64,000 nucleotides of DNA, from positions 806,001 to 870,000 of the forward strand of contig NC_016523.1 in the NCBI RefSeq assembly GCF_000236905.1, read 5' to 3'. Positions 5,301-53,257 of the stretch are shown here, piece by piece. Every line of letters begins with the position of its first letter. The first letter of the stretch is position 1. The position numbers were made by a program, and so were the translations under genes. This DNA comes from Tetrapisispora phaffii CBS 4417. Taxonomy: Eukaryota; Ascomycota; Saccharomycetes; Saccharomycetales; Saccharomycetaceae. Under the pieces are notes generated by a model. The model was not told the DNA's origin. It did no database searches and saw only the letters and a program-made list of their open reading frames with translations.

Positions 5301-6176
5301 CACATCCATAACTTTCTTTATCCATGCTTGAAATTCGTTGATATCTATGAAATTATCAACAGCATCGAAATCCTCAGATGCGTTGTCAAAAAAGAAAGTC
5401 TTATGAATATTCAATAAGTTGACCTTTATTTTTGTATCTAGAATGTTAAACCGTGTTGATTTCCTAATGACAGACACCAAATCGATGAGATGTTTGTCAA
5501 ACTTCACCCTCATAGTAAATATTTCTGCCATTAAATCTAGAGAAGCCTCGAGATAACTCTTTCTGATATCATATATATGTATCGAATCTTCCATTATCGA
5601 TTCTGGTTCCAGATTATTATGCAGGACGTTGATGCTTTGGAAGGTAGCAATCATGTTGTCGTACTTGGACTGATAATAAGTGAAATTCGTTCTCTTCTGT
5701 TTATAAGGTTCGATTATTGTTTTTATTAGATTGATGATCAAGGAAGTATACGTATTCAAATCACCAGCAACTAACTTAAATATTTCAATACCAAAAAAAT
5801 AGTAATCTGTACTGAAATTATCAATCAAATTGGGAAGATACGCCTGGTTGTCAGTCAGTGTCGACTCGATTAAGTTGGATGGCGGTAGAAATCCCGTCAA
5901 CAGTATTTCGTACATTGATCTGAAACTCTTCACAGAATTCTTGTATTGAGAGTCGGTGTAATCCAATTGCATCTGCAACTGGGTTTCAAACAGCTCAATT
6001 CTCGTGTGAAAATAGTTCACAGAGGCCCTAAAAGCAGGAGAATCGATGGATGCCTCTTTCAATTCCACGGATATCAGTTTCAGTTTTATCTCATCTTTAG
6101 AATGCGTTTCTTGATCGTGCACCTCGCCGGCATCTGGCTGAGACACCTTTCTATCAGGATGCAACGTATTTTGCAT
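2388..6176 (-). CDS. SIP3: Sip3/Ysp1-type sterol transporter (BAR-PH-VASt-TM), LAM family
   Basis: This is a 1262-residue member of the Ltc/Lam family that moves sterol between the ER and plasma membrane at contact sites. The order seen is: a BAR-like helical region at about 25-290; a PH domain starting near 350 (GWLYMKT, WVRRWCFI); a VASt/StART-like lipid-binding domain at about 800-970 (RSSFDISPKGLLHCLLGDHSDIF region); a transmembrane segment near 1080-1115 (LLSLMSVNVLIYITLLFSS); and a short coiled tail. S. cerevisiae has two paralogues of about 1230 aa, SIP3/LAM3 (YNL257C) and YSP1/LAM1 (YHR155W). The neighbouring SLA2-type gene favours the SIP3 block, but the choice is inference. The start is the ATG at 6176. 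It is divergent from the SLA2-type gene. Confidence 0.85.
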   Translation of the reverse strand: MQNTLHPDRKVSQPDAGEVHDQETHSKDEIKLKLISVELKEASIDSPAFRASVNYFHTRIELFETQLQMQLDYTDSQYKNSVKSFRSMYEILLTGFLPPSNLIESTLTDNQAYLPNLIDNFSTDYYFFGIEIFKLVAGDLNTYTSLIINLIKTIIEPYKQKRTNFTYYQSKYDNMIATFQSINVLHNNLEPESIMEDSIHIYDIRKSYLEASLDLMAEIFTMRVKFDKHLIDLVSVIRKSTRFNILDTKIKVNLLNIHKTFFFDNASEDFDAVDNFIDINEFQAWIKKVMDVISTASDDLMVVKNQLYEHTLQRIAPSKDMRNYVIKDVSMGILDIVRSNNAMVTDMKESPNISGWLYMKTYVGEQNRLVWVRRWCFIQNSVFGIFALSTSKVYVEETDKFGVLNIDLRYEPLSQRKFCFHLYISKEKKVQKKNLHSIAKETATTVEPDIIVTLQAESYKELKNWFLVFKQAKAYASNLSVDNAEYTTARGRYPPRYLEFASKSITSKDKELTTVNSDTISIKKTLNCEYSEFDFLTIFNKDSNTQEPAFHFMVTSPPITTRFTQLALLTRMIQAPPNYPDAVLINIWGTTDWHEHSVTRGASTTNNIIKKNNSYSYNSNNSEVKYPKNYSERDMIITSQFKSIFYSFNDQYSFDEDEFVLFNYRGYWCPNKHQGFTLTCFITNKYFYHYMDTLGFISLMRKEIKDVISVEQDKITPNLLHFYYLNETSVSQYIYFEKACTVQAIYNFLLENNVSQTPKNINEVLQTLKDIQNNMNKTPRNISKVPKYSNLDCSYYAQVPKSFDPNGKLNIFKKQYHVHYRSSFDISPKGLLHCLLGDHSDIFKKCSLFTGNGSNYSGKHFWREHWKSADSVELVKESKAPVEDSDDKMSGTKKVTRYYNINTVDTTLRLTMLIDDKYYEIQQDPIILKFSFCRYCKIQLKYTISSKTAEDQQPKTLLVVFHDISFLDPKTNEPVTDLSLQEKIIRELLYCTNEQLFLHVKKLLKYYLDKLGNHDRTTRAINYFGMIAVIKSKKDNVHLEKSTEDHEHNIVDINISVVLALAFKVYVVRFCKIFKTYLRIGCILLAKQLLSLMSVNVLIYITLLFSSLTSIFYIGRGIKVHVSMKKSHNILHNFISSSDSWKMQRELNITTVKELIHNITVEDPDLAFGTFNKIDKANSRTYAETKKELNIKRNELLFDLNMLESLEQNLIQGNYRKFLIQEVNNCNKVKDELPSHWNNDTMLQDYCASCSVTLDKICSLLL

Positions 6177-7010
6177 TTTTTTTTGTCAAAAGTCTCAATA
6201 TATCTGTGCTCGTCAGTGCTCTGGTAGGTCCCGGAACACACACAGTACTCATTTCTTGAACTGTCACACCTTCAAATATCCCAGCATCCGAGAAACTCTC
6301 TGTTGATGTGGTGGTGGTTCTTTCAGTTTTCTCAAATTTTGATATCGCAAATGTCAAACGGATAAGAGACAGGGATGGAAAACCAGGCCATAAAGAGTGA
6401 ATATAAGCCCCGGCAGTTGGTAAAACTCCCCTTAGGCTGCCAGCTCTCACCCCGGAAGCGTGTCCATTCCAGATGTCTATATGCCTTCAACATGGCAGCT
6501 GCCAGCTGGTTTCGCATACTTCTATGTGGTGCACGGGTGTGCACATACACAACGTTGCGCCGATGCGGGCGGCGGCCTCGGCTGCACACGGGCAGGCACT
6601 ACGCGGCCTTCTTCGCCCGTCGCAATAGGGGCGGCAACGCCGAGGGTCTCTACGGGGCTGCTCTGGCAAGCGACTCCAAATGCGGTGCATGCGTTTCTGT
6701 GTGCGGCTAACAAGTAGCCGCACAAGGACCGTTTGCGTTTCTTGTGCTTTCGCAGCGCTACCGATTTAAGTTCTTCGAAATTGAAACTTTCCAGTTGAAC
6801 CTTTCCAGTTGAACCTTTTTGATTAAAAGTAGGTGGAATTGGTCTTTGAGTAGACGGTGGGTTTTGTGCTTCAGTGGCTGGATTGTGCTTTGTGAGTTTT
6901 TGTTGTTCTGCATTCGTTTTGGTACGTAACCGAACGAGATTGTATTCGTGATTATTTTGTTAAAAGCGTATATATCAAAGTACTAGTATCTTTATTGGAC
7001 ACATTTTGCA
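6177..7010. other. Divergent SIP3/SLA2 spacer with GC-rich island
   Basis: This 834-bp spacer is very unlike the rest of the window. Bases 6541-6660 are 84/120 G+C by hand count, and GC-richness extends over about 6400-6740. Overlapping open frames exist on both strands, but they are an effect of base composition and none resembles a known protein. A perfect 10-bp stem (TGTGCGGCTA / TAGCCGCACA, loop ACAAG) sits at 6700-6724 and ends the island. The remaining 250 bp before the SLA2-type ATG are ordinary AT-rich promoter DNA. Function unknown; a structured ncRNA or a foreign insertion are possibilities. Confidence 0.5.
6700..6724. repeat. Perfect GC-rich inverted repeat (10-bp arms, 5-nt loop)
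   Basis: The arms are TGTGCGGCTA and TAGCCGCACA around ACAAG. They could fold as a stable hairpin in RNA from either strand. The element lies at the right edge of the GC-rich island. Confidence 0.8.
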
Positions 7011-9479
7011 ATGGGTAGAGGTGCTGGCGATTTGTCAAAGGCTGTTAAGAAGGCGTGCTCGATCGAGGAGACTGCACCAAAGAGAAAACATGTCAGAGCT
7101 TGTATTGTGTACACTTGGGACACGCATTCCAGCAAAGAGTTCTTCCACATTCTGAAGAATTCCACTTTGTTTAACGACCCTGTGCAATTATTCAAGATGT
7201 TGACTTTAATCCATAAGGTCATCCAGGAGGGCCATCCTAGTGCGCTGATCGAGGGTATTAGGAACAGATCATGGATAAAGTCGTTGGCTAGAATGTCGGA
7301 CGGTGAAAACATGCGTATGCACGGTGATGGGGATGGATACGATAGGCTGATCAGAAAATATGTCGAGTTTTTAGTTCAGAAATTGAATTTCCATGCGCAC
7401 CATAGAGGTTTCAGAAACGGTACCTTCGAATACAAGGAGTACATTTCTTTGATCAGTATCAACGACTTGGACCAAGGCTATGAAACTATTTTACAATTGA
7501 TGGCTTTACAGGACCAGGTCGACGAGTTTTCGAATTTTGTATTTGCATCCATCAATAGAGGTGCGAACAATGATCTGAAGATTTCCTCATTAGTTCCACT
7601 GATTTCAGAATCATATGGTATATATAAGTTCATTACCTCCATGGTAAGAGCAATCAACACTCAATTGGATGACGATGGTGTGTTGGATTTGTTGAAAGAA
7701 AAAGTTGAACAACAACATTTACGATTATTCGAATTTTATGCCGATTGTTCTTCAATCAAATTGTTATCGAGCTTAGTGACAATTCCAAAGTTGCCAAGAG
7801 ACCCACCAAATTTAACGGCACAATTAGACGTGGTCCCACAAACATCGGAAAGTCTCGCAAAACCACAAGAGACAAGACGTGCTCCTTCTCCACAAAAGAG
7901 AAGCGGGACAGTTTCTCCTCAGCAACCACCAAGACCTCAAAAGGCAACTGCTACTGGGTCCACACATACGGCTCCTGCAGTGCAACCAACTCCTGCACAA
8001 CACATGCCGGCTACAACCATAGCTCCGTTGGTACCAATGTTAACAGCTGCTGCATTCCCGCAAGCTGCGATGATGACCGGTGGTAGTTTTATTAATCCTG
8101 TATTAACCGGTGGTCCAAATATGTTCTTAAACATGCACGATCAAACAACTGGTAATGCAGGTTTTGGTACTGCAGCTACAGGTTCATTAAGTAATGCAGC
8201 TGCCGTTAATAACATGCAACTGAACACTTCACTAACAGGTGGGAATAATATTACAGGCACGTTTCCTATGCAACAACAAATGCCAACAACAACATTTGGT
8301 GCTACTTTCAATACCTCTCAAATGACTGGTGGTATGATGCCTGCTCAGATTACTGGGGGATTGGTTCCTGCCCATATGACTGGTGGTATGATGCCTGCTC
8401 AGGTTACCGGGGGCTTGGTTCCTGCTCAGGCTACCGGAGGAATGGTGCCTGCGCAAGCCACTGGAGGGATGGTTCCTGCTCAATTGACAGGTTCATATAA
8501 TAATCATGTTGCTGGTCAAGTTACAGGAGGCATGGTTCCTGCGCAATTAACCGGTTCTTTCAATAGTCAAATGTCTAGCCAACTGACTAGTAATGTGGTC
8601 TCGGCACAAGGAACCAACGGTATGATCTCAAATCAAATGACTGGCGGGTTCCAACCCCAAGTTCAATCTCAATCTCAACCACCTAACAATTTTAATAACT
8701 CTATTCCGGCTCAAGTTACAGGCGGTTTCAATTCAAACATGCCAGCGCAGTTGACCGGTGGTGTTGTTCCAAACATGGGAATGGCCAACACTGGTTTCGG
8801 CAATGCCACCACTTCAACACAACAACAATTCACTCATAATAATCCAATGCAAACAAATACATTAGCAGCTGGTGCTGCTGGTACTATGTTGAACCAACTG
8901 GAAGAAAACCAAAAATTATTAGAACAATATGATATTCAATTACAAAAGAATGAGTCAGAAATGAATGAGATCAAGGAACGCTTGTCAACCACGACTAAGG
9001 ATTTAACGTCGGTGCAAGAAAGATATGATGCCCTTTCTAAGTTATATTCACAGCTTCGTCAAGAACATTTGAGATTATTACCTAGGGCACAAAACAGCAC
9101 CCCGGAAGAAACATTAGATTTTGTGTTGCAAGGTGCTATTAACAGTCTACAATCCACACCTTCCTCTAAAATTATCTCAAAATATGCTACTGATTTAGCT
9201 ACGCACATGAATAACTTTATCTTTTCGAAGAATGATTTTAACAATGTTGTCTACGCTGCAACTTTATTCAGTAGCTCCATCACGTCATTGTCAAGCTCGG
9301 CTGCCAATTCTACTAATCAAACAGAAAGAGATAATGTGCAAAGAGTTGCCTATCAAGCCCAAACTTATTTGAATAAACTAAAGTCGACTACATTAGCTCC
9401 CCTTTCGACAGAAGCAAAAACGGACGCCGTTATCAATGCCAACATAGAAATGCAAAGAACTTTACAATTATTAGGGTAG
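7011..9479 (+). CDS. SLA2: Sla2-type endocytic adaptor lacking the C-terminal THATCH actin-binding module
   Basis: Sla2/HIP1R proteins bind PI(4,5)P2 through an N-terminal ANTH domain and tie endocytic coats to actin through a C-terminal THATCH (I/LWEQ) domain. Residues 1 to about 270 form a complete ANTH domain (KKACSIEETAPKRKHVRACI, HKVIQEGHPSAL, FHAHHRGF, ESYGIYKFITS, LFEFYADCSS). A Q/P/T-rich middle follows with repeated PAQxTGG motifs at about 440-580. A coiled coil begins near 627 and contains YSQLRQEHLRLLPR. The protein ends at 822 aa with DAVINANIEMQRTLQLLG, where S. cerevisiae Sla2 (968 aa) continues into THATCH. About 70 residues of coiled coil after LLPR are also missing. No THATCH remnant is seen in any frame before BUD31, 332 bp away. 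It is probably a diverged paralogue, with a full SLA2 elsewhere (inference). Confidence 0.88.
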   Translation: MGRGAGDLSKAVKKACSIEETAPKRKHVRACIVYTWDTHSSKEFFHILKNSTLFNDPVQLFKMLTLIHKVIQEGHPSALIEGIRNRSWIKSLARMSDGENMRMHGDGDGYDRLIRKYVEFLVQKLNFHAHHRGFRNGTFEYKEYISLISINDLDQGYETILQLMALQDQVDEFSNFVFASINRGANNDLKISSLVPLISESYGIYKFITSMVRAINTQLDDDGVLDLLKEKVEQQHLRLFEFYADCSSIKLLSSLVTIPKLPRDPPNLTAQLDVVPQTSESLAKPQETRRAPSPQKRSGTVSPQQPPRPQKATATGSTHTAPAVQPTPAQHMPATTIAPLVPMLTAAAFPQAAMMTGGSFINPVLTGGPNMFLNMHDQTTGNAGFGTAATGSLSNAAAVNNMQLNTSLTGGNNITGTFPMQQQMPTTTFGATFNTSQMTGGMMPAQITGGLVPAHMTGGMMPAQVTGGLVPAQATGGMVPAQATGGMVPAQLTGSYNNHVAGQVTGGMVPAQLTGSFNSQMSSQLTSNVVSAQGTNGMISNQMTGGFQPQVQSQSQPPNNFNNSIPAQVTGGFNSNMPAQLTGGVVPNMGMANTGFGNATTSTQQQFTHNNPMQTNTLAAGAAGTMLNQLEENQKLLEQYDIQLQKNESEMNEIKERLSTTTKDLTSVQERYDALSKLYSQLRQEHLRLLPRAQNSTPEETLDFVLQGAINSLQSTPSSKIISKYATDLATHMNNFIFSKNDFNNVVYAATLFSSSITSLSSSAANSTNQTERDNVQRVAYQAQTYLNKLKSTTLAPLSTEAKTDAVINANIEMQRTLQLLG

Positions 9480-9811
9480 CACAGTATATAATCTATTGAA
9501 ATAAGACAAAACAGTGTATAAATAAGATAATATAATATAATATAATATAGTAATAGTAAATTATTAATTGAAAATGTTTCCAAAATCATATACTTCTAGC
9601 AGCTCATAAATTTTTTGTTCTTAATAATAGCACTTGGCGAAGAATTTTAGGATGGATTTCAGTAACAAATTTTTCAGAGATGAGATAAATGAAAGATGAT
9701 TTTGAATCTTTTGTTAATTCTTCTCTGAAGAGAGGAGACACGCTTCGATAGTTTAATGCAACTTCATTCAGTTAAATTTGTTATCAATATATTAAGTGAT
9801 TTGGAATCAAA
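9480..9811. other. Spacer between the SLA2-type gene and BUD31
   Basis: AT-rich 332-bp tandem spacer with an (ATAAT)-like low-complexity tract around 9526-9550. No homology to the missing Sla2 C-terminus was seen in any frame. It should contain the SLA2-type 3' end and the BUD31 promoter. Confidence 0.5.
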
Positions 9812-10291
9812 ATGCCTCGTATCAATCTAAAAACAGCTAAAAATGCGCCAAAGGGTTTTGAAGACATCAAAGAGACATTGCAGGAATTCCAAGAAGAATT
9901 AGATGACATACAGAGTTCTGAGAAGAGCTCGAAGTTGGCAGCAAGAGCCAACGTTTCGCTGTGGGAGATCATGAGAATCCATAATGAGCGTTCGAGATAT
10001 GTATATAACTTGTTTTACAAGAGGAAAGCTATATCAAGAGAACTTTACGAATGGCTATTGAAAAACAAATATGGTGACAAGTACCTAATTTCGAAGTGGA
10101 AAAAAAAAGGATATGAAAAGCTTTGTTGTCTACGATGTATACAGTCAGCGGAGACTGTCCATGGCACGACGTGTATTTGTAGAGTTCCCAGAGCACAACT
10201 TGAGCGTAATGCAGAAAAGGATGGTGATAGCAAAGTATCTTTCACCCAATGTGTTCATTGTGGATGTCATGGTTGTTCGAGTACCGATTGA
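9812..10291 (+). CDS. BUD31: Bud31/G10 splicing factor
   Basis: Bud31 is a small zinc-binding component of the activated spliceosome near the U2/U6 catalytic core. The 159 residues agree with the S. cerevisiae length of 157. The family C-terminal half is unmistakable: SLWEIMRIHNERSRYVY, FYKRKAISRELYEWL, GYEKLCCLRCIQ, TCICRVPR and CVHCGCHGCSSTD, with cysteines forming the zinc clusters. The start is the ATG at 9812 (MPRI, as in the family). It precedes HCM1 and RAD18 in the same order as S. cerevisiae YCR063W-YCR065W-YCR066W. Confidence 0.96.
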   Translation: MPRINLKTAKNAPKGFEDIKETLQEFQEELDDIQSSEKSSKLAARANVSLWEIMRIHNERSRYVYNLFYKRKAISRELYEWLLKNKYGDKYLISKWKKKGYEKLCCLRCIQSAETVHGTTCICRVPRAQLERNAEKDGDSKVSFTQCVHCGCHGCSSTD

Positions 10292-11568
10292 AGTCGTTGT
10301 TTCATCATCAACTTGTTCTCTTTTCCATATACAAATATGTGCAATTTGATGGTATGAAATTTGCTTGATTATATGTATATCAATCAAATTTTAAGAAGAA
10401 CCCATTTGATTTCATAAGAAGCAGATTTTTGTTATGCTTCTAAGCCCCAACAAATTATTGACCTTCATTTTCAATATTGCATGATCAAAGCATTAGTTGT
10501 TGACTATTATTTTCTATCTGAAGAAGCCAAGACAGAAACGCACATGATATTATCAGGTCCAAATAGGAAAAGACGCTGATAAAGGTACCTTAACATAAGA
10601 ATCAAGCCAAAACAACGCCTCAGGGATAACAAGCGGATGGCGCTAGAATGGAAATGTACTAAACTAGGAATACAATAACGTCTACTTGACAGAAGTTCAA
10701 ACCACCCTGGATTGATGTAGAGAGATTCCGATGTCCATAAATCTAACGTGGCCGGAACCAAGACGGATCTGGCTACATGCACCAGAAAACAACCTACTTT
10801 CACCTTTCAAGAATTAACCTTACCAAGATACAGAATAATGTCACCAACCCAATCGTCTTGTCGAAACCTGTGCATATTTCATAGTTTCGACTTGAAACCG
10901 TCACTCCAAATCTAATCAAATTCTTCAAAAGACTACGAGGTGATTCTGCTTGAACTTTTGAAGAATTGCATCCATCCCAGAAGCATCCACTGGTGTATGT
11001 GGCCAAAAGGACACATACCTCATCACATCAATGCATTAAAATATATCTTTCGTGTTTCTTGTTCCTTCCACCATTCATATTACACGTTCGACAGTACTGA
11101 AAATATTTTCGCGTTTTATTATTTTTACGCGTGTCACTTTTACACCATTAAAGGAAAAGTTGAGATATGTGGATCGTACATCAAGTTGGTTAACTTATAT
11201 ATATAGATGTAGATATAGAGGTGTACATATATGTAACTCCTAAGTGTGTGTAGAACTTCTTATTAAGCCCAAATGATTTATTAGTGAATTGTTTAAGTAG
11301 ATCTGTCAGATATTATATATATTTCGATACTTCCTGGTCAAATTTCTCTTTTTGTATTTTTTAGTTGAAGGAAAGATAAAGGATTGAAAAAAAGATACTA
11401 CTATTTCCCTTCATTTTTTAAGATTGGAGATATATCGATTGATCTTAGATCACCAATTCATTTTCAAGTTGAAACGTATTCCAAGATTAAATACTCAGTT
11501 GATCCTATACGGAAATTATAAAGGAGGGCCAAAGACTTTTACAGTAACGCTAAAAAAATATACCAGGT
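10292..11568. promoter_or_regulatory. Long HCM1 upstream region with G1/S elements
   Basis: A 1.28-kb spacer. It holds an SCB-like site TTTCGCG (reverse complement CGCGAAA) at 11107-11113 and a perfect MCB ACGCGT at 11127-11132, about 440 bp before the HCM1 ATG. Short open frames in the left half have no ATG of note and no recognisable similarity. HCM1 is a late-G1 SBF/MBF target in S. cerevisiae, so these sites are plausible control elements. Confidence 0.55.
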
Positions 11569-53072: not shown

Positions 53073-53257
53073 NNNNNNNNNNNNNNNNNNNNNNNNNNNN
53101 NNNNNNNNNNNNNNNNNNNNNNNNNNNNNNNNNNNNNNNNNNNNNNNNNNNNNNNNNNNNNNNNNNNNNNNNNNNNNNNNNNNNNNNNNNNNNNNNNNNN
53201 NNNNNNNNNNNNNNNNNNNNNNNNNNNNNNNNNNNNNNNNNNNNNNNNNNNNNNNNN
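53073..53257. other. Assembly gap (185 N)
   Basis: Bases are undetermined. The gap lies inside the repeated modules, so a collapsed or unresolved repeat is likely. Its size may be an estimate. Confidence 0.95.

Follow-up and report, generated by a model that had tools for sequence, protein, structure and literature searches.

How can a protein whose counterparts link the endocytic coat to actin do without its actin-binding domain? The question is raised by a gene in a 64,000-nucleotide stretch of Tetrapisispora phaffii CBS 4417 (contig NC_016523.1, positions 806,001 to 870,000; hereafter the window). The gene, at 7011..9479 on the plus strand, is an orthologue of SLA2 that encodes 822 residues; its product keeps the ANTH domain, a shortened coiled coil and the REND domain, and ends at the REND/THATCH boundary without THATCH. 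The related linkers Sla2/End4 of S. cerevisiae and human HIP1R consist of ANTH, coiled coil, REND and THATCH, and through the THATCH domain of Sla2, among other links, the force of actin is conveyed to the membrane. We consider it probable that the gene is the species' sole SLA2 orthologue, that THATCH was lost in an ancestor, and that the remaining protein serves as a coat anchor while actin is bound by epsin and Pan1. This reading is carried by the architecture of the gene, by genome searches in which no second SLA2 or THATCH was found, by a loss that is clade-wide and recurrent, by a gain of repeats, by retained interface residues and by a site-rich epsin tail.

The open frame at 7011..9479 has Sla2 proteins as its nearest homologues, and its N terminus matches Sla2 ANTH domains in the Protein Data Bank. 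The ANTH domain (residues 7-275, 7029..7835, plus strand) matches PF07651 at 1.2e-70 and retains all of K10, K13, K14, R25, R29 and W36, the ANTH-ENTH contact residues given in excerpts of PMC8129110. In the predicted structure the ordered ANTH domain is followed by a disordered linker (residues 273-619, 7827..8867, plus strand; pLDDT below 50 nearly throughout), then by a 75-residue helix (residues 620-694, 8868..9092, plus strand) that contains the conserved segment KLYSQLRQEHL, and finally by REND (residues 696-822, 9096..9476, plus strand), which reaches the end of the protein. By alignment, this coiled-coil helix is shorter by about 70 residues. The stop codon, TAG at 9477..9479 (plus strand), directly follows REND at its boundary with THATCH. 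Pfam gave no PF01608 (I_LWEQ) match in the 822-residue protein, and neither the 332 bp intergenic region (9480..9811) nor any forward frame downstream of 9479 holds THATCH sequence. An earlier, sequence-only reading of this DNA had described an intact ANTH domain and partial coiled coil, some 70 missing coiled-coil residues, a frame ending where THATCH should begin and no THATCH in the 332 bp before BUD31; all of these descriptions hold. Compared with Sla2/End4 and HIP1R, then, the protein lacks THATCH (I/LWEQ), has a coiled coil about 70 residues shorter and has a linker filled with TGG repeats.

A protein with ANTH and no THATCH could also be compared to AP180/CALM (Yap1801/2), in which ANTH is followed by a long, disordered tail bearing short motifs, as it is here by a disordered linker. 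However, the ANTH domain is 51-66% identical to solved Sla2 ANTH domains and 15-18% identical to the CALM/AP180 rows (the structure-search lists were filled mostly by ANTH matches), and the protein has a coiled coil and REND, which sets it apart from AP180/CALM. Another likeness is the laboratory allele sla2-deltaTHATCH, reportedly described by Skruzny in 2012, of which the protein is a natural equivalent with the same truncation. It differs from that allele in that the natural truncation became fixed during evolution, close to the domain boundary, and was accompanied by a gain of repeats in this clade.

The short form is shared by close relatives. The three nearest homologues with full coverage, V. 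polyspora Kpol_1028p49 (P0003), T. blattae TBLA_0I02330 (P0006) and a third protein (P0002), also lack I_LWEQ, and the ends of all four proteins agree to within one residue. Alignment of the gene end with orthologues, a check that the sequence-only reading had proposed, places the ends of these four clade members 7-8 residues past an invariant Gln in the last REND helix.

We searched the species' own 12.1-Mb genome (12,115,070 bases in 17 contigs) for a second SLA2 or a detached THATCH. With the 822-residue protein as query, the only matches apart from the gene itself were two weak ones between repeats (E 0.003 and 0.058), inside genes that we call PAN1-like and SLA1-like from their Pfam domains. 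Full-length Sla2 of N. dairenensis matched only three pieces of the 7011-9479 gene, and its THATCH part had no match at E<=10. This query provides its own control of sensitivity, as its REND part was recovered at 37% identity (E 1.2e-5). The 259-residue THATCH domain of S. kudriavzevii likewise had no match in the genome at E<=10, an empty answer that calls for a positive control; this domain is 68-70% identical to THATCH of two post-duplication yeasts and 42-51% identical to that of four more distant yeasts. A family search with PF01608 was empty in the genome and also in its controls and counts for little, so we rely on the N. dairenensis and S. kudriavzevii queries. Family searches do work in this genome, because a search for ENTH gave 7 matches at E<=1, 6 of them above the cut-off. 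The gene thus appears to be the species' only copy of SLA2, and by sequence it is most likely an orthologue rather than an extra copy: its nearest relatives are SLA2 proteins and no further SLA2 was found.

These searches bear on three other explanations. The sequence-only reading had taken the gene for a post-duplication paralogue, keeping lipid and coat binding and possibly competing with a full-length Sla2 encoded elsewhere. A shortened copy could plausibly compete in this way, and the relatives of this species are post-duplication yeasts. Nevertheless, no second SLA2 and no THATCH were found with any of the three queries, and the closest relatives carry the same short form with ends within one residue, making such a decoy very improbable. 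The part of the functional proposal that survives is that the lipid- and coat-binding part, with its contact residues, is kept without THATCH; the part that fails is competition with a full-length protein. Alternatively, the gene could have undergone fission, with THATCH now a separate gene whose product joins the short Sla2 in trans. Fission would preserve function and nothing else was seen in its favour; the THATCH query had no match in the genome at E<=10, and when proteins of about 140-450 residues were searched with a THATCH profile, none named from these species stood among the best 120 of 832 matches, most of them nameless. We regard fission as equally improbable for this genome, barring a THATCH that lies in a gap or has diverged beyond recognition. 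Least credible of all is an artefact of assembly or annotation that hides a THATCH exon. The window does contain one run of 185 N, but no N lies near SLA2, the in-frame stop comes immediately after the REND helix, the ends of four proteins of different origin agree to within one residue, and the forward frames downstream are free of THATCH. The paralogue, fission and artefact explanations were rejected because no second SLA2 or THATCH was found in the genome and because relatives share the same end.

Short forms of Sla2 also occur outside this clade. In a 31-row alignment, 10 rows without THATCH end 4-10 residues past the invariant Gln and 21 rows with THATCH extend 160-274 residues past it, the five shortest of the 21 being of the Lachancea type (160-191 residues). 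Three short forms outside this alignment end 6 (P0054), 13 (P0264) and 23 (P0274) residues past the Gln, so that 11 of all 13 short forms end 4-10 residues beyond it. Proteins that resemble incomplete assembly products (P0032, P0060 and P0243) were left out. The Zygosaccharomyces-type short forms also lack the coiled coil that is retained in the T. phaffii protein. Z. parabailii SLA2 (P0031), found by protein search, has 454 residues and no I_LWEQ; excerpts of a paper on the MAT locus term this gene 'full-length' (PMC5433688).

The losses do not trace to a single event. A tree of ANTH domains from 36 rows chosen among the fetched proteins requires at least 4 changes, and a 31-row tree requires at least 3; the latter drops P0006 and P0274, which have longer branches, and the distant P0264, P0098 and P0105. 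The inferred changes are one in the 7011-9479 clade together with Zygosaccharomyces and its sister forms, one in L. thermotolerans, one in L. fantastica and, in the 36-row tree only, one in P0264. A single clade of all short forms was rejected on the 31-row tree (p-AU 9.75e-05), where the groups tested had been named after the 36-row result. Judged from these sequences, loss of THATCH is old and recurrent, having affected the 7011-9479 clade, Zygosaccharomyces and its sister forms and, twice, Lachancea, near one boundary. Two observations weigh against our reading. Two short forms, with 13 and 23 residues after the Gln, end further on, and coverage of other species was thin and came from protein searches only. 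Among the best 120 of 1058, 832 and 1236 matches, many of them nameless, there was no THATCH protein named from another short-form species. For both reasons we lowered our confidence slightly.

Two further observations concern the domain in other species. Lachancea proteins P0039, P0042, P0089 and P0241 retain I_LWEQ, but they extend only 160-176 residues past the REND Gln, compared to 246-256 residues in full-length rows of post-duplication yeasts, as though THATCH were losing residues from its N-terminal side. P0264, a metagenome protein of 794 residues with ANTH and no I_LWEQ, falls outside the other short groups in the 36-row tree; it may represent a further loss, is uncertain and is not relied on here.

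The position of the clade within these trees invites a different account. The genome duplication of these yeasts was of hybrid origin, and a single loss in the Zygosaccharomyces-side parent could have been inherited by the T. phaffii clade, the Saccharomyces clade having kept the other parent's full-length SLA2. In agreement with this, the T. phaffii clade groups with Zygosaccharomyces and its sister forms (support 88/91 with 36 rows and 60/89 with 31 rows), and most forms of both groups stop 6-8 residues past the same Gln. On the other hand, a grouping with the full-length Saccharomyces side was not rejected on the 31-row tree (p-AU 0.463), the branch of the clade is long in both trees (0.36-0.38), and the Zygosaccharomyces-type forms lost their coiled coil too, whereas the T. 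phaffii protein keeps one. We consider inheritance from a hybrid parent a serious possibility, though somewhat less than evenly balanced.

How might a coat built with this protein receive force from actin? We favor an ancestral loss followed by dependence on epsin: the 3' end that encodes THATCH would have been lost in an ancestor common to Vanderwaltozyma and related yeasts, and the remaining protein would still build the endocytic coat. ANTH would bind phosphatidylinositol 4,5-bisphosphate (PIP2) jointly with the ENTH domain of epsin, the coiled coil would dimerize and meet the clathrin/Pan1 layer, and REND is kept. The species' own epsin (L008) has 487 residues with ENTH and UIM, and carries Y, T and E at positions 100, 104 and 107, the contacts on the ENTH side. 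Its tail carries 5 Ark1/Prk1-type sites, all of which fall within residues 371-458, compared to 0.09 expected. Of the 7 ENTH matches, 6 could be read, and an Ent1/2-like tail was present in L008 alone; L007, L009, L010 and L011 resemble ENTH proteins of other kinds, L013 encodes a WD40 protein, and L012 has no frame of 250 residues from an ATG within its stretch. We take the tail of this epsin to resemble the actin-binding tail of Ent1, and it is likely, judging from sequence, that such a tail has been kept in this genome.

Genetic results from S. cerevisiae are consistent with a route through epsin. According to excerpts of PMC8628263, about 90% of patches internalize in sla2-deltaTHATCH cells compared to about 93% in wild type, and deletion of THATCH is lethal in combination with ent1-deltaACB ent2-delta. 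The C terminus of Ent1 is near that of Sla2 during invagination (excerpts of PMC7218409). Because the ANTH-ENTH contacts are kept, and given these genetics and the proximity of the two C termini, actin force most likely passes to the membrane through the C-terminal actin-binding tail of epsin, with Pan1, and through the ANTH-ENTH lattice. Of the linker's two tasks, the short Sla2 probably performs that of anchoring to the membrane.

In this clade the linker has also gained repeats. Residues 276-822 contain 12 sites of the Ark1/Prk1 type, [LIVM]xx[QNTS]xTG (motif as in excerpts of PMC4775215), compared to 0.42 expected, and none of 2000 residue shuffles reached this number. The same region contains 13 TGG, compared to 0.47 expected in shuffles. 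The 12 sites lie in residues 375-583 (8133..8759, plus strand), a stretch that includes a tandem array of a 27-bp unit in 6.1 copies, of MVPAQATGG type (8317..8482, plus strand; Tandem Repeats Finder). By motif count, the protein has the multiple sites that characterize Ark1/Prk1 substrates. Counts in P0002, P0003 and P0006 were 7, 13 and 7 TGG with 4, 6 and 2 sites; the site count of T. blattae (P0006) is weak, as 100 of 2000 shuffles were as high. We compared 171 Sla2-type proteins, defined as those of 296 fetched that exceed 350 residues and carry RKHVR or RKHLR within the first 60. At least three TGG were present in 4 of the 171, namely the T. phaffii protein, P0002, P0003 and P0006, all in this clade. 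(The THATCH motif used on this set was missing from 23 of the 171, including at least 8 in which Pfam finds I_LWEQ: P0009, P0020, P0094, P0105, P0246, P0266, P0267 and P0269.) Repeats do not follow every loss, because other short forms have few or no sites: 2 TGG and 2 sites were counted in L. thermotolerans, and no sites in the two Zygosaccharomyces forms, L. fantastica, P0244 and P0274, the last two of which might be from Torulaspora.

TGG-type repeats with [LIVM]xx[QNTS]xTG sites also occur in Sla1 and Pan1, and the weak matches within the T. phaffii genome fall in PAN1- and SLA1-like genes. Unlike those proteins, the T. phaffii Sla2 lacks EH, SH3 and SHD1 domains, and its repeats lie between ANTH and the coiled coil. 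DUF1720, which Pfam found in the PAN1-like protein, had no match listed for the 822-residue protein, and repeat terms had no match in PMC5559269. Predicted Ark1/Prk1 sites were all placed in the membrane-proximal adaptor layer in the excerpted text of PMC7218409. Our best guess is that the repeat linker would lie in this adaptor layer and serve in docking to, or release from, the Sla1-Pan1-End3 layer. Through the repeats, Sla2 would probably become part of the kinase-regulated Sla1-Pan1-End3-epsin layer, and the Ark1/Prk1-type sites would allow it to be released after uptake.

Why would the same end of the same gene be lost repeatedly? In Saccharomycetaceae the 3' end of SLA2 faces the mating-type (MAT) locus, whose erosion Gordon et al. 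are said to have worked on in 2011. Pre-duplication yeasts have the gene order DIC1-MAT-SLA2 (excerpts of PMC3628578 and PMC4065246), and MAT has been termed a rearrangement hotspot (PMC4065246). A truncated SLA2 adjoining a MAT-like cassette was described as erosion in excerpts of PMC6405483, and in W. canadensis a repeat adjacent to MAT consists of the 3' part of SLA2 (excerpts of PMC6692504). It is this part of the gene that encodes THATCH. SLA2 is not MAT-linked in T. phaffii, as matches of the MATalpha1 type were found on contig C5 only. Two MATalpha cassettes on C5, which we take as MAT and HML, share an identical stretch of 3,096 bp (L018 3788-6883 and L019 2765-5860). One of the cassettes is flanked by a SEC10-like and a SWI6-like gene, both of which have their 3' ends within this stretch; the stop codon of the SWI6-like gene directly adjoins that of MATalpha1. 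Thus, 3' ends of MAT neighbors lie in a shared, presumably switching, zone in this species. A search of the genome for a fossil Z region, in the form of a second copy of the 3' end of SLA2, found none. Since SLA2 is not MAT-linked now and no second copy is left, we infer MAT erosion for this clade. Erosion on the MAT side remains our preferred, though unproven, explanation for the loss of THATCH, and a likely one. We also entertain, as a tentative and rather doubtful extension, that erosion by MAT switching cut off THATCH, that repeats switchable by Ark1/Prk1 then re-coupled Sla2 to actin through Pan1-End3-Sla1 and epsin, and that this recurs where SLA2 adjoins MAT. If so, the sex locus would be a recurrent editor of the endocytic machinery.

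Yeast lineages that seemingly lack THATCH are natural experiments, and they suggest that direct binding of Sla2 to actin is dispensable in evolution, given the epsin route. Testable predictions follow: redundancy predicts that the epsin tail is essential, and replacement assigns a role to the repeats. Recurrence near one boundary in a MAT-neighbor gene would connect damage from mating-type switching with the alteration of a housekeeping machine. In the open-licence PMC literature, we found no paper on natural loss of THATCH by title or start of abstract among the matches listed, and no paper on Sla2 with the term 'REND domain'.

The surroundings of the gene offer a few minor observations. Upstream of SLA2, the segment 6500-6699 is GC-rich (64%), compared to 22-53% in the other 200-base steps of 5500-11499. 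The N run, the sole one in the window, occupies 53073-53257 and is a gap or a withheld stretch. On the 3' side (9812-37173), SLA2 is followed by genes for BUD31, a forkhead protein, a RING-SAP protein (RAD18-like), an Rpb3-type polymerase subunit, Prp31, a kinase, CwfJ, an RRM protein, a class I tRNA synthetase, a mitochondrial carrier and a BAR/PH protein. These are presumably a mix of neighbors from S. cerevisiae chromosomes III, VII and XVI, as we would expect after genome duplication.
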